From positions 26,068,841 through 26,132,840 of the forward strand of contig NC_092575.1 of NCBI RefSeq assembly GCF_037975245.1: 64,000 nt of DNA, read 5' to 3'. Shown here in pieces: positions 27,301 through 42,300 of the stretch; positions within the stretch are counted from its first letter, which is position 1, and each line of letters begins with the position of its first letter. Under the pieces are notes generated by a model. It searched no databases. It was not told the origin of the DNA and saw only the letters and a program-made list of their open reading frames with translations. The DNA comes from Apostichopus japonicus. Its lineage: Eukaryota > Echinodermata > Holothuroidea > Aspidochirotida > Stichopodidae. The position numbers were made by a program, and so were the translations under genes.

Positions 27301-30300
27301 GGAGGAGGAGTTTCAATGTCTTACCTGTCCTTCTGCCATCTCTTTTTCTTCCTGAAGTTGGGAAAGTGCTGGATCTCCTGGAGGTACATCAGAAGTAAAC
27401 AGTAAACAATAAACAAACACATGAGGAAGATGTAAAACATAAAATAATTTTACTTACTTGGAAAGTTACCAGAGAGATGCTACCAGTAACATAACCCTCA
27501 AGTTAGACCTCTGCTCATCTCTCAACAATTACATCAATCTTGTTTTAATTTTTATCCATAGATAAACATCTTCGTAACCATAAGTGATGATCATTTAGCT
27601 GCCTTCCTCCTCTCCCTCCATCAACAGTTCCCCAAACTCTAATCTCTCCGAATCAGTCGCTACCATTATCTCCCCTTTCGCTCCTTCCCAGATCATCCAT
27701 CTTTCTACAAGTTTAATTTTAGTTTATTTCTTTGCCTTAGTTCAATTCATATCAATGTTAAATTCCAACCGTCCTTCCCCGTGTTCCCTCCCTCTCTTTC
27801 CTCCTACACAGACCACTCACCATCTTCATCAAGATCCCCTGGATTTGACGATTTCTCCCATCTGTTCTGTGTCTGCTGTTGAACATCTTGGAGGGACGTT
27901 TCCAGCTTGGCGACTTTATCCTCTAACAACAGTTTTTCATTCTCCAACTTCTCTATTCTCTCCTTTTGACTACCCGCTTCTGAAACTTCCGCTCTAAGTA
28001 CTGTTACCTGAAATAAACAAATGTAACATTCAGTCAAACATTGAACTTTAAAATTCACTCAAAATTGGCTTTTCAAAATTTCACTTACAGATTTTTAACA
28101 TTCATACAGTCCAAACTGTAATTTAATAAAGCAATTTGTAACAAATCGACTTTAAAGCTCTTTGTAACAAATCTGTGGATTGATTCCATTCCTTAACCCT
28201 ATAAAAATTAAAAGACACACCCACATGTATCTCACATGCCACGATTCAGTTATAATATACAAAAATGTTGAGAATGTAAACTTGTGAGAGAGGATTGAAG
28301 TAGACAGACCATGTATGGGCACAAAGATAAAATGGGTAAAATGGAGGGTGGGGGTGGGTTGGGGGCAGGTGGTGAGGGGTAGGTATCTATTTACCTCTTG
28401 TTTGTAATGTTGCACCTGGGGTGCAGGGGGGTGGGGGTGAGGGGTAGGTATCTACCTCTTGTTTGTAATGTTCCACCTGGGGCAGGGGGTGGGGATGGGG
28501 GGCAGGTGGTGAGGGGTAGGTATCTATTTACCTCTTGTTTGTAATGTTCCACCTGCTGGTCATGTTCTGCTACTAATCCATTAGTAACATTGATGGTCTG
28601 CTGCAAGGCTGATTTTTCCTCCTCAAAACGGGACATTTCTTCTTCGAGTCTGAAAAATAAACCAAAGAGACAACTTCCATTAGTCACTAAGTATTTTGTT
28701 TGTATTACGCTGTCGACAATTCTGCCAAAGCCTACGAGTATTAACCAGATTAAACTATAATTTATCTAACCGAGACAATATGCTAGATGTTTTCACAAAG
28801 TGAAGGTTGACGATGGAGTAATTAATAAATCTGATTCCATTTCTCATTTACCCCAGATACTTTGACATGTTTAGCATTAATCAAGTCCAGCAAAGACAAT
28901 TGTGTGTCCAGCATTAATCAAGTCCAGCAAAGACAAAAGTGACACAAGAAACTTAAACAACTATTTCATGACAGTTTCAAAGAGATGATTTATTACTAAC
29001 TTTTTCTTGAGGTCTTCCAGTTCTTTGGTTAGAGTTGTATTTTCTTTCATCATCTGCTACAGAAACAAAAACCAATGTACAGAAAAGTAAAAGGTTGAGA
29101 GGAAGGGTAGGGAGCGGGAGGGGGGGGGGTGATAAAACCCTAATAAGGTAACTTACTTTCTACGGTAAAACAAATATGTTTACATTTTTATCTTTATGAT
29201 GCAACTTAAACTGATCCCTAGAGCTGCCAACTTTCAAGTTTAAGCAATCCAATTTTTAACAATCAGCATGACAGATACAACAAATCATTAACTTATCAGA
29301 AATATTGAAATCGAGTTTACAAAGGGTTTCACAATTTCGACCCTGGTGACCCCAAATGACCTTTGACCTCCACCAAAAGCAATGGGCTACTGGTATGTTA
29401 AATGAATTACTGCAATAGAAAATTTGTATGAGGTACATGCCTGTGGGAACTGATATGAGGCCATGACATGCTTAATAATACACGTAAAAACTGCTGACTT
29501 GACAAAAAATAGCACTTTTCATACACTTCTTACACTTCCTGCATCACAATATATAGCAATTATTGGGCGAATGTCTTTCAATGATTCCAATTATACCTCA
29601 GATCCAGCGGATTCCTTGTCTTTCACGGACTGTAAATTCTGTTCCATGCTGACCTTTTCTGTCTCCATGCTTGTCACCTTTGACCTTTCCGATTCCAGCT
29701 CTTTCTTCAAGTCGGCTCTGTAATGACAGAGATGGACACATTTGTATTGTAGGAAACTAAGAAGAGTATCAAACAGATTAAATAGAGAACCTTAACACAC
29801 TGCATCCACATTGATTGAAGCACGCAGCCTGTATGGGTCCAACAGCATAAAACAGGAAGATGAAATCAAATGAACAATCATATTGAACTGTAAAAGATTG
29901 AGGACTCAATATTGTAAACTGTCCACTAGCTAATGGCTAGCATGGCAGGACTATCTGGCTACCTGGGGGTGGGAGGGGGTTGTGGCAAATTCATGGCATA
30001 TCCTTACTGATATTCCTACAATACAACCTATATGATCATCTGAAAATTGTAAAATTTGGAAAAACTGTAAACCCATCAAAGAATACCTCATGTTCGTACG
30101 GCCAAAAATTTTGGCCGTTTGTGGAAAGTGTCAAAAGTAATTTTCTCTAAACCAGTTCACCTTATATGTATATATTTCCCCTAATGAAGTGTTGGTTTGT
30201 ATTAATTGATGTTTTCTATTATAAATATAAGACACCTCTGATCTATTCTTGTAAATAATTGATAGGAATACCATGTCATTTCAACTAATAGGGTAAATTA

Positions 30301-33300
30301 ATTGCATTTTTCTTTTATTATTTTCATTTTAATCAACAGTACTATCCTAACGTCCGAATATTTTTATAAACACAGGTGGCATAAATGTAGCCTATAACAT
30401 GCACGTACACATCAAGCTATCATATCATGTCTGTGATAACTGAACATGTCTATTACTAGTATGATCATGCTGAATGCATTTAATGAGCATTCGGTGTTGA
30501 ATGTCAGAACGGATAATTTTATACCCTGGCGACATCTGACTGTTGCATGATATAAAACAAATACTTTACTAATCCTGCAGCCTCATTAGCATACAACCTG
30601 TGCCTTAACAACCAATCAAAGAAAGAGAGAGAGTGAGAGACTGATACCTTCAGCTCAAACTACTTACACCTGGCTCTTCAAGGTTTCCATACCGGACTGG
30701 CCTTGTTGCGCTTTCATCAACTCTTCTCGAGCCGTGTCGAGTTCCCTTTGCAGATTTGAAGATCTTTGTTCTGATTGCTGGAGATCATTTTGTCGAGATG
30801 AGTTGTCGGACTGAAGGTCAGTGATGGTATCCTCTAGTTCTGACACCTTTCGTTCTTTCTGCTCCAAGGTTTGTTTTGTTTCGGTTCTATCAAGAAAATG
30901 GGTCGGCAGATTACAAATAGAGGAAGTTTGATTTGAGTTTTGAGTCAGCAATTTCTGGCAATTTTTTACAGAATATCTCTGAAAATTTAAAAATTATGTA
31001 GCAATTATATTTAACTAAGACACCCCTCCTCACATAATAAACCTTAATAAAGGAGCACTTAATAATTAATCTCTATGTTGAATATTTAATCACCTAGACA
31101 AATTTTCATATTGGTATATTAAAATCACATGCAAACAACAAATAACAAAGATAGCTTGACTTAATTTTTTTTTTTGGGGGGGGGGAGTTTAGTATTCCAA
31201 GTTATGAAAAAATTCATGAAAAAAAAAAAATTATCAACCAAAATTGCTTTGCTTGGTTTGTGACAACTATTGTAAAATGATGGCATAACACTTGACACTA
31301 TTCCAGGAATACCACTGGAGGTATTAGTTTGCCTTTAACCTCTCTCCTGGGAGATTTACTCACAGTTGTGATTTGAGTGAAGTGACATCAGCATCGCTCT
31401 TCTCGGTGGTCTTCTGCACTGCTTCGTACTGCTGCTTGGAACTATCAAGCTGTCTCTGTAGGATCTCCATCTCCTTCTGCATCTCCTCGTTCTGATCTTT
31501 GGTCGCCGCAAGCTGGGAGAGGAGGGTCTGCTCTGTCTCTTCCAATCGCTGGGCCTTTGTCTGACTCAAGTCAAGAGCCTGCTTTGTGTCCATTCTGAAA
31601 GAGAAGAGAAGATTAAAATGTGGAGTGATCCTTAAAACTGTATTGGAGACGATAAATCAATTAAAGTCATCACTTTTATCACTCTTATTGCCCTCTACCT
31701 TGGTTTTACTAAACCTTACAAAATGTATCTTTGTGTAGCATAACATGGTATAAGATAGCATAGCACAGCATGATGTAGTAAAGTGCACAGCTATCAGCCA
31801 TGCTGTTTACAGAACCAGAATGCTATGCAGCGGTTTTGTACACTAAAGAACAACATTTGTCATCATTTGCTGGTAAACAAAGACATTAATGTCAGTACTG
31901 TTATGCAAACTATGACCAATAGATTAGTCTAACTCAGGGTTGTCCAACCTTTTGCAGAGGAGGGCCACATGGAATGATTATGATGAAGGAGGGGGCCACA
32001 TGAACCCTACGCTCGATCTTTTGCCCGAAGCCCAAGGCAACAAAATGTGAGCACTGCGCGCGGAGCGCACTGACTTATTTTCGTTCCTGATAAAACAGAT
32101 GAATAAAGTACAGCCGCCCGACCCCCCCCCCTCCTCCGCTGAGAGTGTCACACAAACTGACCTGTATGCAGTTATTTGGACCCAGAAGGTTCGAATGATT
32201 GATTATATAGCTTCAAATTGTTATCAATAAATCTGCTCACTAAAATTTCGCACCGTACAGCATCTCTGGCGGGCCGGACGCAACCCTGCGGCGGGCCGGA
32301 CTGTGGCCCGCGGGCCGAAGGTTGGACAACCCTGGTCTAACTTATGAGAGATCTTTATTTTGAATTGTGACACCATATCAAAAGAAACTTCTCATTTCTA
32401 CTAGTTGTGAATGAAAATGAGGTAAACTTCCAAATTTCTTAGTTTTTTTTTTTCTTTTGGTAAAGGGAGTTTGTACACCAAGATCCAGAGATTTCATGGT
32501 AGTTCTATTATCATTTCTATCCAAATAACATCAAGCTATATTGATGATTCATTCTTCACTTTCTGCATTCAGGTGCAACTGTTTATTGACTCAACAAACC
32601 AAACTAAACTCTTTTGACAAACTGTTTTTCTCCATAAACAAAGTGTCATACCTTATTAATCTTGCTCCAAATTCTTATCACTTCCCAGTGTTTGTTGTTA
32701 AATGTTTCTTAGTTCGGCCTTCTAGCTTTCTCTCTTATATGGCTACTTACCCACACAATGGTAAGAACTCTCACTGATAAGTATCCTTGGCATACCCACA
32801 CATTTAACATTCACTAAATTGAACCAGTGTGGAGAGTACCTTGGCATACCAACACATTTAACATTCACTAACTTGTGTGGAGAGTACCTTGGCATACCAA
32901 CACATTTAACATTCACTAACTTGTGTGGAGAGTACCTTGGCATACCAACACATTTAACATTCACTAACTTGTGTGGAGAGTACCTTGGCTTACCCACACA
33001 TTTAACATTCACTAACTTGCACCTGTGTGGAGAGTACCTTGGCATAACCCACAAGGTGTATGCCCTGGCATACTTATCAAATATTCATACACTTACAACT
33101 CTAGCTGCCCGGCGTAAACCATTGCCAAATATATTAAATATTTATATCATCACCCACTTTGCACAGCTGTTTCTTTACTGTACCATCATGTCCCCTTTCA
33201 GAGCACTGGTAGTGTCAGTATGAGCAGTATGTAACTCTCTGTAACTGTCCACTTGTTTCCTTAAGCTGCCTAACTCCTAGCATACTTATTGAATATTCAT

Positions 33301-36300
33301 AAACTTACAGCTCTGCCTGGAGAATACCCTGACTGCTCTGTCCTTCTTGTTGAGCAGCTGTTACTTGCTCTCTGTAACTGTCCACTTGTTTCCTTAAGCT
33401 GCCTAATTACCTAGCATACTTATTGAACATTCATAAACTTACAGCTCTGCCTGGAGAATACCCTGACTGCTCTGTCCTTCTTGTTGAGCAGCTGTTACTT
33501 GCTCTCTGTAACTGTCTACTTGTTTCCTTAAGCTGCCTAACTCCTAGCATACTCATTGAATATTCATAAACTTATAGCTCTGCTTGGAGAATACCCTGAC
33601 TGCTCTGTCCTTCTTGTTGAGCAGCTGTTACTTGCTCTCTGTAACTGTCCACTTGTTGCTGCCTAACTCTTAGCATACTTATTGAATATTCATAAACTTA
33701 CAGCTCTGCCTGGAGGATACCCTGACTGCTCTGTCCTTCTTGTTGAGCAGCTGTTACTTGCTCTCTGTAACTGTCCACTTGTTTCCTTAAGCTGCCCAAC
33801 TCCTCCTCAAGAGAAATCTTGGCTTGTTGAGCAGAATGTAACTCCGCACTCATGGATTTATGGGATGAATCAAGGTTTTCCAGTTTACCAACTTTCTGTT
33901 CCAGTTCCTGTTTCGTGTCTGTCCTATATTGTGAAAATGAACCAAAACAGTGTATCACAAATCTCATAAGTTGTTGAATGTCAAACTTTGATATAACAGG
34001 TAGAGTGAAGCAATATTTATATCAAATTTTAGAAATTAGTAACAGAATATGTTTTTTTATGATTTAATAACAGAATATTTTATCATCTACTTCAGGAGCC
34101 CTTGTCAAAACAAAGACCGCTGAGCTACATGTGGCCCACAGTGGCCTCCTGGTCTCTAGTAACTGAAGTTTGTTAGCCATACCAGTTACTAGTAATTGCA
34201 AATGCAAATTACACTAGGGCGGGATAAAACTGAGATGCAAAATCATTGTAGAAGGTGTGTAAGGCAACCATCAGTATTTTATTTTGTAATGAAATCAAAC
34301 ACCAAAATGTGTGTTTAGTTGCAAACATGACCAGCTGTATGAAGTTGTTACTCACAATATGGCCTCCAAGCCTGTAATCTTTTAGTTGCAAACACAACCT
34401 ACAGTATGTATGAAGTTGTTACTCACAATTTGGCCTCCAAGCCTGTTATCTTTTAGTTGCAAACACAACCTATGTATGCAGTTGTTACTCACAATATGGC
34501 CTCCAAGCCTGTTATCTTTAAGTTGCAACACAAGCTATGTATGAAGTTGTTACTCACAATATGGCCTCAAGCCTGTTATATTTTAGTTGCAAACACAACC
34601 TATGTATGCAGTTGTTACTCACAATATGGCCTCCAAGCCTGTTATCTTTAAGTTGCAAACACAAGCTATGTATGAAGTTGTTACTCACAATATGGCCTCA
34701 AGCCTGTTATCTTTTAGTTGCAAGCACAAGCTATGTATGAAGTTGTTACTCACAATATGGCCTCAAGCCTGTTATCTTTTAGTTGCAAACACAACCTATG
34801 GCAGATTTCACAATCAGATGGTCCAAAAGCTCCCACAGTATTAAAAAAATTAAGTTTGTTTCAAGTTATGTAATACACATGTTTTTTATTCTTTGACATC
34901 TCAGTGAAGTGAAAATGGAATGTAGAAGATAAAATATGGTGCAAATTTTGGAAAATTTACTACTCTAAATTGCAGAGTCACACGAAGTCACAATCCATTC
35001 GAATCTCACCCTTCCCTCTTTTTAATCCCCAGGAGATACAAGGAAAGTCCTAGTCCCATAATTCTTCAGTTATGGAAAGCACCAATGTTGCAGACTATAA
35101 CTAGTATAAAAGATATTATTTAAAAATTCTTAATTTAATTTTAGCTTGTTACAATCGACATTGATGTGATTGGACGGACATTTATGATAAAATATCAATT
35201 AATAGTTCACTTAAAAAATTAATAAGAAGAGAAAAGAATTTGATTTTGTTGCAATGTGTTAAGGACATTTGCTTTATAACAAATAAACACAAAAACTGTC
35301 TTTAAATTGCATAATTAGCTTAACAATACAAAAACTTTTTCAATTTCACACATAACCATTGGACGGACACCACAGTTATGTGTGAATTTCACACATAACC
35401 ATTGGACGGACACAGAGTTGCAGTATGTGTGAATATTACACATAACCATTGGAATGAAGCATTGTTTTGAAAACATTCAGAATAGTTATGCAAACTACTT
35501 GATTCTGTTTCATCCATTTCTATCTTTTATGTCTATTTAACTTACTGTACAGATATATGTTGCAAGGGTAGAACAGCAAGTGTATGGATAAATTCACACA
35601 CTCCAACTGAGTCAGAGGTATCTGACTGTCACCACATATATTGCAATGAATTCAACAGCAAAAAGGGAAAATTTAATATAAAGTTTGCAGGCATATTGAA
35701 TTCACCTTTAATTACTGCATTTAATTGACTGAATTGATGTTATAGAATTGTATAATTGGTTTTTAACTTGTAACATCCGACATGGACGGACATTTATGGT
35801 AAATTATCAGGTAAAAGTTCACTTAATAACATACTCAGAAGAGAAAAGAATTTGATTTGTGTTAAAAGATGTTAAGAACATTGCTAAATAACAAGTAAAC
35901 ACAAAAACTGCCTTTAAATTGCATGTAGCTTGACAATACAAAACACTTTGTTTAATTTCACACATAACCATTGGATGGACACAGAGTTATGTGTGAATTT
36001 CAAAAATAACTTATGGAGTCATTGGTTTAAATATGTATACTTAATACCCATTCACAGGGAAATTCGTTAGAAAGCCTTACATTAACAAGAGAATTAATTG
36101 CCAGGCCATGCCCCTCATAAATGTGCATGACATTAATTGCATCACACATCAGCATGTGTAGCTAGGTTACCTACCAATATCACCATATCAAGTTTTTGTT
36201 TGAGAAATTCAACCTTTTGATTGCCAAGTTATTGCAATATATAAAGATTTTTACCCTTTGACCTCATTAAGTAGGTATTAAAATTAATAGTGTTCATCTG

Positions 36301-39300
36301 GTAATAATCAATAGCTCCCTTGTCAAGTTATGGTGCATACAAACTTATGCTAAATAAATTACGCTAAGCATGCGTCCTCATCAATATGCATGAGGTGAAA
36401 TTCACATCAGAAAGTTTGGGCTACATACCAATCTAACCATACCAAGTTTGAAAAAATCTGACATGTGCTTGAGAAGTCATTGCACTTTGATGTTTGACCC
36501 TGTGACCTCATTAATATTCATGAATGAGCACCAAATTCAATTGGGTTCAACATCTTATTATGGGCCACCCACTCACCAAGTATGCTATTGATCAATGGTT
36601 CCCTTGTCGAGTTATCATTCATACAAACCAAAAAACTCAGACCCGCCTCTCCATTAATATGCATGGTATCAATTACAACATGCATCAGCATGTATAAATG
36701 GTCTACCAATATCACAACACCAAATTTGAAGGAATTCAGACTTAGTTAGACAAGTTATTGCAATTTGAAGATTTTGACATTCGACCCTGTGACCTCATTA
36801 ATATTCATGAATGAGCACGAATTCATCACTGCTAACTTCCCCTTCCGGCGGCATCCACTACATTATTTCCCAATCCTCACATTCTCTGTTCTGTTTCCTT
36901 GCAATGCAATGCGACAGCTACTAATTTACTACCCCAAACTTGCAAACTGAGTAGGCCTAGGAATACAACTACAAAAAAATCGCAAAACTGGTACTAGAAG
37001 TACAGATGTATGTAGGGCAGCCATTTGCAAAAACTGTATTTTAGTCATAAACATCGCTCACAATGTGTACTTAAACATCGGAGAAGCGTTAATTCTTCAT
37101 CTGAATACTTGACATGGTCCAACGATCTAATTTGATGCAGCAGCTTTAAGTTTACATTTGTTACTCGCAGTGCCCGATATTGCGCAATGTCTGTCCCCTC
37201 GCACGTTATCCTAGCGTTATCTGTCCCCTAACATAACGTGCGCTAAGCCGATTACGATGTAATGGCCTTACATCTAACCATTGACACTATTGTGTGTGGT
37301 ATGTCAACTACGATAAGAAAGATGGTAAACAAATATAAAAATGAGCTAATTCGTCCTTGTTTCTTGTTTTGAGCTTAAGATTTGTAAGAAATAGTATTTC
37401 GCACGTAACACTTTCGCACACGTAACACATGGGACGGAATTTCTTCACCGTATCATATAGTTACGAAAGTGTTGGTTTAGAACGTTACAGCTTGTGTTTA
37501 CCAATAGTGCGAAATCAGAGGCAGATTGTGGAGGGTGCACTGAACAAAATAATTTCCATACGATGTTTATATCCGTGACGATGTATTATGTCACACGTAA
37601 CGGAAATTTGGACGGACATAACGTGTGATTTATGAAAAACTACACAATTACAGGAGATTAGGTTTGATCGGGGATATTTTATTGTTATTATATAAGATAC
37701 ACTTGAGCAATGTTTACACAACAAAATCGTAATTTTTTTTAATCGTGTTGACAAGAAATAAGGCATACATTATTTTACATATTTTGGACGGAAATAATCT
37801 GGGAAATTGTCACTTATTGAGATACATCCACAAGGTACAAAATACCAATAAAGACAAAGAGACACCACTTACTTTATACATAATTCTTATCTTCATTGAA
37901 TGAGCAAAATTTATTTCAGTTGCTCTTCATTCTCACAATGTACATACCAATTATTTAAGCAACACCTATTTGTGGGAGTTGAGTCCGTCCATTTTTGTAC
38001 AAAAAAAAAATTTCATCATTATTTTTCAAAGAAAATAAATGAACAAAATAAAAAATATTATCTTTTTTATTTCAAATGCATGAGTTGTTCAAATTAATGA
38101 CAAAGACTTGTAATTATTTAGAGCACACAGCAGTACAGTGTACTTCAAACTGACTATGCTGGTTTGGACCATCAAACTGTGAAATCTGCCCTATGTGTGC
38201 AGTTGTTACTCACAATATGGCCTCCAAGCCTGTTATCTTTAAGTTGCAAACAAAAGCTATGTATGAAGTTGTTACTCACAATATGGCCTCCAAGCCTGTT
38301 ATCTTTAGTTGCAAACACAAGCTATGTATGAAGTTGTTACTCACAATATGGCCTCCAAGCCTGTTATCTTTAGTTGCAAACACAAGCTATGTATGAAGTT
38401 GTTACTCACAATATGGCCTCCAAGCCTGTTATCTTTAAGTTGCAAACACAAGCTATGTATGAAGTTGTTACTCACAATATGGCCTCAAGCCTGTTATATT
38501 TTAGTTGCAAACACAACCTATGTATGCAGTTGTTACTCACAATATGGCCTCCAAGCCTGTTATCTTTAAGTTGCAAACACAAGCTATGTATGAAGTTGTT
38601 ACTCACAATATGGCCTCCAAGCCTGTTATCTTTAAGTTGCAAACACAAGCTATGTATGAAGTTGTTACTCACAATATGGCCTCAAGCCTGTTATCTTTTA
38701 GTTGCAAGCACAAGCTATGTATGAAGTTGTTACTCACAATATGGCCTCAAGCCTGTTATCTTTTAGTTGCAAACACAACCTATGTATGCAGTTGTTACTC
38801 ACAATATGGCCTCCAAGCCTGTTATCTTTAAGTTGCAAACACAAGCTATGTATGAAGTTGTTACTCACAATATGGCCTCCAAGCCTGTTATCTTTAGTTG
38901 CAAACACAAGCTATGTATGAAGTTGTTACTCACAATATGGCCTCCAAGCCTGTTATCTTTAGTTGCAAACACAAGCTATGTATGAAGTTGTTACTCACAA
39001 TATGGCCTCAAGCCTGTTATATTTTAGTTGCAAACACAACCTATGTATGCAGTTGTTACTCACAATATGGCCTCCAAGCCTGTTATCTTTAAGTTGCAAA
39101 CACAAGCTATGTATGAAGTTGTTACTCACAATATGGCCTCAAGCCTGTTATATTTTAGTTGCAAACACAACCTATGTATGCAGTTGTTACTCACAATATG
39201 GCCTCCAAGCCTGTTATCTTTAAGTTGCAAACACAAGCTATGTATGAAGTTGTTACTCACAATATGGCCTTCAAGCCTGTTATCTTTAAGTTGCAAACAC

Positions 39301-42300
39301 AAGCTATGTATGAAGTTGTTACTCACAATATGGCCTCAAGCCTGTTATCTTTTAGTTGCAAGCACAAGCTATGTATGAAGTTGTTACTCACAATATGGCC
39401 TCAAGCCTGTTATCTTTTAGTTGCAAACACAACCTATGTATGCAGTTGTTACTCACAATATGGCCTCCAAGCCTGTTATCTTTAAGTTGCAAACACAAGC
39501 TATGTATGAAGTTGTTACTCACAATATGGCCTCCAAGCCTGTTATCTTTAGTTGCAAACACAAGCTATGTATGAAGTTGTTACTCACAATATGGCCTCCA
39601 AGCCTGTTATCTTTAGTTGCAAACACAAGCTATGTATGAAGTTGTTACTCACAATATGGCCTCAAGCCTGTTATATTTTAGTTGCAAACACAACCTATGT
39701 ATGCAGTTGTTACTCACAATATGGCCTCCAAGCCTGTTATCTTTAAGTTGCAAACACAAGCTATGTATGAAGTTGTTACTCACAATATGGCCTCCAAGCC
39801 TGTTATCTTTAAGTTGCAAACACAAGCTATGTATGAAGTTGTTACTCACAATATGGCCTCAAGCCTGTTATCTTTTAGTTGCAAGCACAAGCTATGTATG
39901 AAGTTGTTACTCACAATATGGCCTCAAGCCTGTTATCTTTTAGTTGCAAACACAACCTATGTATGCAGTTGTTACTCACAATATGGCCTCCAAGCCTGTT
40001 ATCTTTAAGTTGCAAACACAAGCTATGTATGAAGTTGTTACTCACAATATGGCCTCCAAGCCTGTTATCTTTAGTTGCAAACACAAGCTATGTATGAAGT
40101 TGTTACTCACAATATGGCCTCAAGCCTGTTATCTTTTAGTTGCAAGCACAAGCTATGTATGAAGTTGTTACTCACAATATGGCCTCAAGCCTGTTATCTT
40201 TTAGTTGCAAACACAACCTATGTATGCAGTTGTTACTCACAATATGGCCTCCAAGCCTGTTATCTTTTAGTTGCAAGCACAAGCTATGTATGAAGTTGTT
40301 ACTCACAATATGGCCTCCAAGCCTGTTATCTTTTAGTTGCAAACACAAGCTATGTATGAAGTTGTTACTCACAATATGGCCTCCAAGCCTGTTATCTTTA
40401 AGTTGCAAACACAAGCTATGTATGAAGTTGTTACTCACAATATGGCCTCAAGCCTGTTATCTTTTAGTTGCAAGCACAAGCTATGTATGAAGTTGTTACT
40501 CACAATATGGCCTCAAGCCTGTTATCTTTTAGTTGCAAACACAACCTATGTATGCAGTTGTTACTCACAATATGGCCTCCAAGCCTGTTATCTTTAAGTT
40601 GCAAACACAAGCTATGTATGAAGTTGTTACTCACAATATGGCCTCCAAGCCTGTTATCTTTAGTTGCAAACACAAGCTATGTATGAAGTTGTTACTCACA
40701 ATATGGCCTCAAGCCTGTTATCTTTTAGTTGCAAGCACAAGCTATGTATGAAGTTGTTACTCACAATATGGCCTCAAGCCTGTTATCTTTTAGTTGCAAA
40801 CACAACCTATGTATGCAGTTGTTACTCACAATATGGCCTCCAAGCCTGTTATCTTTTAGTTGCAAGCACAAGCTATGTATGAAGTTGTTACTCACAATAT
40901 GGCCTCCAAGCCTGTTATCTTTTAGTTGCAAACACAAGCTATGTATGAAGTTGTTACTCACAATATGGCCTCCAAGCCTGTTATCTTTTAGTTGCAAACA
41001 CAAGCTATGTATGAAGTTGTTACTCACAATATGGCCTCCAAGCCTGTTATCTTTTAGTTGCAAACACAAGCTATGTATGAAGTTGTTACTCACAATATGG
41101 CCTCCAAGCCTGTTATCTTTAAGTTGCAAACACAACCTATGTATGCAGTTGTTACTCACAATATGGCCTCAAGCCTGTTATCTTTAAGTTGCAAACACAA
41201 CCTATGTATGCAGTTGTTACTCACAATATGGCCTCCAAGCCTGTTATCTTTTAGTTGCAAACACAACCTATGTATGCAGTTGTTACTCACAATATGGCCT
41301 CAAGCCTGTTATCTTTTAGTTGCAAACACAACCTATGTATGCAGTTGTTACTCACAATATGGCCTCAAGCCTGTTATCTTTAAGTTGCAAACACAACCTA
41401 TGTATGCAGTTGTTACTCACAATATGGCCTCCAAGCCTGTTATCTTTGCCTCTTCTTTACTTCTATTCTCCTTCTCCACCTCTAACTGCTGCTGCAACTC
41501 TTCCATCTCTGTCTTCATCTCATTAAACTCCTCTACAGTCTTTCCCATCTTCTCTTTGGTTGAATCTAACATCTGCCTCAAGTTTGTTTCGGCTTCCTCT
41601 TTTTGAACCTTCTGTTGGCTCACTAACTCTAAGGAGGCCTTGGCTTCCTCTAACTGTTTCTCCAACTGGAGGAATAAATGAAGTTTTAAAGAAACATTAC
41701 TCAAAAAAACATTTTTCGTACATTTGCATATGGTTGATGTCTGTTTTAAATCATCATTTATCTATAAAGAATGGCAGACCCGACAAAAGTCACATTGCCC
41801 CTCCTCCCTCCTATTTCCCTCACAACCACCCCCCCCATCCCCCTGCCTGATGCTCTTTCATCCTTTCCTTCAATAAGACCAAGCTACAAGAGCAAAGACA
41901 AGGTTACATTCATAGCTACTTAATACGTAATATTAATACTTAATACTTTACCAAGGGACAAGCTAACCAATTATTGGAATATCAAACTGCGAGGTTTCGT
42001 CTAAAAACTCCTTGGTAAAAGCAATCTTAACTTTAGCCCAGAATTATATTTGCTTTTTTCATTCTATGATAAATACTCAAATTTGAGCAAAGACAAAGAA
42101 GTGAGTAATTACTGCCCCCGTTATTTACCTTCTCTCGTTGCTCTGTATTCTGGGCTTGTAACCTCTGTAACTGGCTCTCCAAGTCAAGCTTATCTTGTTC
42201 CATACCGGAAAGTAACGTCTTCGTGGACTCTATCTCCTGGTTGGCTTCCATCCTGAAAGAACGATTGGATATCTATTGTAAATGGAGCTTTCATTACCTT

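Follow-up and report, generated by a model that had tools for sequence, protein, structure and literature searches.

A large mirage-like minisatellite with 57 identical 5' splice sites in an apparent CLIP1 gene of the sea cucumber Apostichopus japonicus

The genome of the sea cucumber Apostichopus japonicus contains, on contig NC_092575.1 of assembly GCF_037975245.1, a gene in which a minisatellite of 57 units repeats an exon end together with the adjoining 5' splice site (donor). The DNA analysed here, called the window, is a stretch of 64,000 nucleotides (nt) from positions 26,068,841 to 26,132,840 of the forward strand. Its minus strand carries the gene, for which 19 exons were modelled (E1–E19, from 60056 to 26865 in window coordinates). 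The gene appears to be CLIP1, encoding CAP-Gly linker protein 1, on the basis of a C-terminal exon near 26.3 kb that encodes the CLIP1 zinc knuckle (PF16641, E-value 7.8e-11, 42 bits where the cut-off is 25) and also matches PDB entry 3e2u, the chain of which is named CAP-Gly domain-containing linker protein 1 (E-value 1.3e-6). These two matches bear out the label CLIP1 that a preliminary description of the DNA had used; the N-terminal CAP-Gly domains of such a protein would be encoded before E1 (60 kb). A protein search for relatives found none at an E-value of 1e-10 among 8000 scored candidates, a result that coiled coils and the database make uninformative. A single open frame spans the joined exons E6 to E15. 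The frame is broken at the E5/E6 and E15/E16 joins, where small exons may be missing from the model, and a candidate seen by eye near 29.1 kb may be a missing exon.

The array begins at exon E11 (41421..41665, minus strand), a 245-nt exon with a phase-2 end that is defined by its open frame, acceptor and donor and is flanked by introns of 463 nt and 7497 nt. Its authentic donor, GTGAGT at 41415..41420 (minus strand), is identified by the frame to E12 (33702..33923, minus strand, from the exon model), the next exon in frame, and is the first of the 57. The large part of the array, with 50 units and 50 GTGAGT donors, is at 38191..41447, and a small part of seven units and seven such donors is at 34314..34799 in the same intron, both on the minus strand. 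In the large part Tandem Repeats Finder (TRF) reports a period of 65, 49.8 copies and 95% matches, and cutting at an anchor yields 49 units of 64–66 nt and one that is cut short, with GTGAGT in 50/50. The 65-bp unit spans the exon-intron boundary, being made of the last 27 nt of E11 (41447–41421) and, counting the donor, about 38 nt of intron. The outermost unit is the authentic boundary itself, starting at 41447 inside E11, and the copies follow in the same orientation, in the intron that separates E11 from E12. The donor context is ATT/GTGAGT in 57/57 units. The similarity of the copies to the E11 boundary reaches E-values as low as 5e-41, and a genome scan with the unit (671,581,487 bases in 35 contigs), which scores the best candidates only, has 57 matches among those listed, all of them at the CLIP1 locus. 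Chance is therefore ruled out as the origin of the similarity. The preliminary description had placed a 65-bp array of about 50 copies at 38191..41447, each unit with some 26 nt of exon end and a GTGAGT. Position, period, copy number and donor all stand. The exon share is 27 nt, and the extent had been understated, as it did not include the seven further units or the donor arrays at two other exons of the gene. Folding of 601 nt of RNA around the first units gave a z-score of -3.55 (20 shuffles), as expected from mutually pairing repeats.

The two parts of the array are separated by a transposon-like inserted element of 3391 nt at 34800..38190, with no strand assigned. Its inverted ends are 34 nt long and 85% complementary (end sequence GGCAGATTTCACA), and the 4-nt target copy ATAG is present on either side. 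When joined, the array edges at the element reconstitute one unit. Because the cut ends make one unit and are flanked by ATAG, a single original array has been split by the insertion.

Which of these donors keeps the protein intact? The end of E11 is in phase 2, and reading past it gives ATA TTG TGA, as had been described before. Use of the second donor would add 65 nt, and the frame would then run into a stop immediately past the exon end, 61 nt ahead of the junction; any later unit has the same stop, at least 61 nt before the next junction. E11 and E12 are in frame only through 41420, which agrees with the earlier claim that the first donor alone preserves the protein. The open frame from E11 to E12 is consistent with regular splicing. 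An immediate stop follows at 6/6 phase-2 introns of the modelled gene (18 of its 19 exons were covered) and is a generic property rather than one of the array, because a phase-2 end followed by GTRAGT always reads xxG TRA. In a matrix built from 16 other donors of CLIP1, the E11 donor scores 7.8 and every unit scores the same. The dozens of equivalent donors in the preliminary description are thus 57 that are alike, and because they are alike the donor itself cannot mark the copy to be used. Across intron 11, 61 sites score at least 7.8, and 57 of these are inside the arrays.

The units were compared in an alignment of 56 of the 57, the unit cut by the inserted element being left out. Variation is present in 20 of the 71 columns, and half or more of the variable columns owe it to one or two units. 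A 1-nt deletion is present in the exon-like part of 22 of the 56. Unit types repeat in blocks, such as KABFCABD, with identical pairs commonest at lags of 4, 8–10 and 17–18, and the first five units belong to types absent elsewhere in the large piece. Judged from lag counts and by eye, the inner units have evolved in concert and the edge units are distinct. Both the recurrence of blocks and the confinement of types to the edge are predicted by unequal exchange. Selection on the donor within the units is unsupported. The donor is invariant, yet so are 51 of the 71 columns in the alignment, and because most columns do not vary its invariance is no evidence of selection. The history of the array may have started with a tandem duplication straddling the 3' end of E11 and its 5' splice site. 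Unequal exchange would then have enlarged the array to about 57 units inside intron 11, and the transposon-like element would later have cut it in two.

To look for boundary copies elsewhere in the gene, every exon of the model, extended by 60 nt of flanking sequence, was compared with the window. The exons tested were E1–E19; neither the exon of the zinc knuckle (near 26.3 kb) nor a possible one near 61.5 kb was among them. Copies that span the donor were found at 3/19 exons (E11, E12 and E16), and among the 19 exons tested against the window there were no copies that span an acceptor. The E12 donor array (33235..33804, minus strand) has 4.3 copies of a 133-bp unit containing the end of E12 and GTAAGT. 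Besides the authentic donor, GTAAGT is present in two of its copies and in a diverged one near 33104; one copy has ATAAGT. Just downstream, at 32780–33046, there is a 48-bp array of 5.3 copies whose unit resembles, by eye, the intron part of the E12 unit; this is perhaps a second-generation minisatellite. Exons E12 to E15 (29597–33923) have similar starts, each after a phase-2 intron, which suggests an old tandem exon duplication within the coiled coil. The third array is at E16 (28532..28649, minus strand, from the exon model) and consists of the authentic boundary and two further copies (28350..28555, minus strand; TRF: 28371–28507, period 61, 2.2 copies). The two further copies make 21-nt in-frame exon-like pieces behind C-rich acceptor-like tracts, and these pieces could act as microexons.

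Two neighbouring genes in the window are MNR (PF15718) and a gene with a CCDC92 domain (PF14916). Among the 16 exons of these neighbours, no donor and one acceptor are duplicated; some exon ends in this test were set by eye, and it was made without two MNR exons with unfixed ends (near 9.6 and 7.3 kb). The duplicated acceptor is at 2529–2494, where the start of an exon of MNR (moonraker) and its acceptor AG are copied once upstream (36 nt, 94%).

For comparison with the rest of the genome, a sample of kinase loci was searched, comprising 52 matches in 50 loci from at least 134 kinase-domain matches listed (131 of 1182 candidates scored). The edges of these matches are profile edges and not proven splice sites, in some kinases a single exon encodes the whole domain, and among the first 30 loci 13 are reverse-oriented, so that their edges are swapped. 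Donor arrays are present at 3/52 matches, two of which (L058 and L059) are paralogs. In locus reverse-strand coordinates, the array of L033 (1854–2354) has 15.9 copies of a 31-bp unit and 15 GTAAGT, and those of L058 (2171–3005) and L059 (2169–2933) have 12.0 and 11.0 copies of a 70-bp unit with 11 GGTGAGC each. Repeat matches were also found at L038, L041–L044 and L046. Of these, L038, L043 and L046 were rejected as donor arrays, the repeats being copies of the coding end and following sequence and not of a donor. These three loci belong to a multi-copy kinase family and have 3' flanks with spaced repeats from the coding end and beyond.

Are donors, then, preferred sites for such arrays? Arrays make up 16.7% of the bases of the CLIP1 region and 7.3% of those of the kinase loci, but they include only 130 of 3052 exon bases. 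They overlap 2/19 donors and 0/19 acceptors in CLIP1, the short E16 array being below the score limit, and donors show no excess because 2/19 is set against 16.7% of the gene region. When the tests are pooled, 6/87 donors and 1/87 acceptors are duplicated (Fisher one-sided p 0.059), a comparison that pools unlike methods and is not decisive. The motif GTRAGT is not enriched in minisatellite units of the window and loci L017–L066 (5/50, shuffle mean 4.06), and two of the five arrays that bear it are the two pieces of the E11 array. The reversed control motif TGARTG is over-represented, in 14/50 minisatellite units against about 4 in shuffles, with as many in 0/300 shuffles. Most simply, duplications would arise widely, be purged from exon bodies and be tolerated at donors. 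The E11 array would persist owing to a minisatellite-rich genome and this tolerance of tandem duplication at the donor.

The 'mirages' described in amphioxus are tandem duplications of exon-intron boundaries that resemble minisatellites and apparently do not disturb splicing [PMC3087553]. The E11 array is probably a mirage in this sense, spliced out whole with its intron and near neutral for CLIP1. Exons between introns longer than about 250 nt are reported to be defined across the exon, the donor nearer the acceptor then being favoured, and in HeLa cells all five minigenes that carried two identical donors used the upstream one exclusively [PMC9225289]. Exon definition would pair the acceptor (exon start 41665) with the nearest donor at 41420 to give the 245-nt exon, and the later identical donors would lose since they define a longer exon. 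From this we infer that the exon-proximal donor is used exclusively. Several observations weigh against this interpretation. Four donor-like sites outside the arrays in intron 11 are at least as strong as the E11 donor. The minigene results come from HeLa cells and from two donors rather than 57, and in natural human events with near-equal donors the upstream one is reported to win about 60% of the time, and more if the exon is exon-defined [PMC9225289]. When six arrays, hand-picked afterwards and with that of E16 extended, were placed at random, at least 3/6 began in an exon and extended over its donor in 202/20000 trials, a hint that donors may be favoured rather than merely tolerated.

The preliminary description had proposed that copy number could tune expression, transcripts spliced from distal donors gaining a stop and undergoing nonsense-mediated decay, so that a longer array would mean less CLIP1. 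The 57 donors are alike and local strength cannot decide between them, and use of any distal unit would leave the stop far enough before the next junction for decay. The usual rule for nonsense-mediated decay is 50–55 nt. Against this, the stop is generic to phase 2, exon-defined minigenes with identical donors used the upstream one only [PMC9225289], and amphioxus mirages are reported without splicing disturbance [PMC3087553, PMC3902484]. We regard tuning of CLIP1 by copy number as unlikely, and the present analysis does not support it. A wider form of the idea is that mirages at donors, with dozens of identical donors per array, are widespread in sea cucumber genes and change fast, array length fixing a low frequency of distal splicing and decay and serving to dial CLIP1 and other genes by copy number, safe only through exon definition. 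This, we believe, is quite improbable. Could the array instead be a platform that binds many U1 small nuclear ribonucleoproteins and shields the 7.5-kb intron 11 and its element from premature polyadenylation? There are 57 U1-type sites, and the intron holds five AATAAA, none in the large array and four in the element; the donor columns, however, are no more constrained than most others in the alignment, and minisatellite units in general lack GTRAGT enrichment, which leaves such a role very unlikely.

The exon-like pieces might also turn into new exons or shift the intron, as in models put forward for amphioxus globins [PMC3087553] and for human boundary repeats [PMC2812944]. The 21-nt in-frame copies at E16, with their acceptor-like tracts, fit such a fate, but the exon-like part of the E11 unit has no preceding pyrimidine-rich tract (by eye) and carries the 1-nt deletion in many units, and for this array we give the birth of an intron or exon very little probability. 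Copy number in long repeats can be wrong, and the array length or the split might be misassembled. The A. japonicus genome of 671.6 Mb in 34 scaffolds was reported from PacBio HiFi reads with a mean of 14.7 kb [PMC10344927], more than 4x the length of the large array and about 2x that of the whole 7.1-kb stretch. The 35th contig of the genome scanned here is mitochondrial (16,099 bp); its cox1 is sensible under the echinoderm code (AAA=Asn, ATA=Ile, AGA=Ser), and the order of the 8 tRNAs detected fits the echinoid/holothuroid type, in line with this species and not with amphioxus. The array is present in a genome that fits this HiFi assembly, which largely answers the concern, raised with the preliminary description, that it might prove collapsed in long-read data. 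The block order of unit types and the target copy at the insertion also argue against an assembly artefact, and the chance of one is slight. The near-neutral mirage, removed whole with intron 11, is in our view the probable reading.

The CLIP1 array is probably one more example of an established class, the mirages; its size is unusual, and no earlier report from its phylum was found; among open papers at the top of longer result lists, no mirage outside amphioxus turned up. In amphioxus many units retain splice signals and the messenger RNA is reported to be normal [PMC3087553, PMC3902484]; the second of these reports adds a PGBD5 mirage and cites those of TnC and Adh. The CLIP1 array resembles the amphioxus mirages (Adh3, globins BflGb6 and BflGb9, TnC and PGBD5) in having splice signals in its units, homogenised inner units and distinct edges. 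It differs in being in an echinoderm rather than a cephalochordate, in its 57 units against the 6 and 3 reported for two BflGb6 haplotypes, and in being one of three donor arrays in a single gene, one of them cut by a transposon-like element. Among the features of mirages are regular splicing and a length that is unstable between alleles or in somatic cells; the CLIP1 array is known from the sequence of one assembly. The range of mirages would thereby be extended from amphioxus to an echinoderm, with a donor array far larger than the published examples compared. The locus also indicates that a gene can retain a tandem duplication at one of its splice sites and not be broken by it, a step needed by models of intron gain.

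Minisatellites at exon-intron boundaries are also known as human variable internal tandem repeats in segmental duplications, which are proposed to create novel introns [PMC2812944]. Those repeats are reported to have units of about 30 bp in 4 copies on average and to occur in recent paralogs with altered gene structure, whereas CLIP1 keeps its authentic donor and its copies are intronic. The tandem dual-specific splice sites of polyubiquitin UBC likewise place many equivalent splice signals in one gene, but they act as both donor and acceptor and delimit coding repeats [PMC10809524], in contrast to the intronic units of CLIP1 with their donor. A similar competition is set up in the minigenes in which identical donors follow one acceptor [PMC9225289]. 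Two engineered donors in HeLa cells are replaced in CLIP1 by 57 natural ones, and this row of identical donors behind a single acceptor offers a test of the exon-centric proximity rule that nature has set up.

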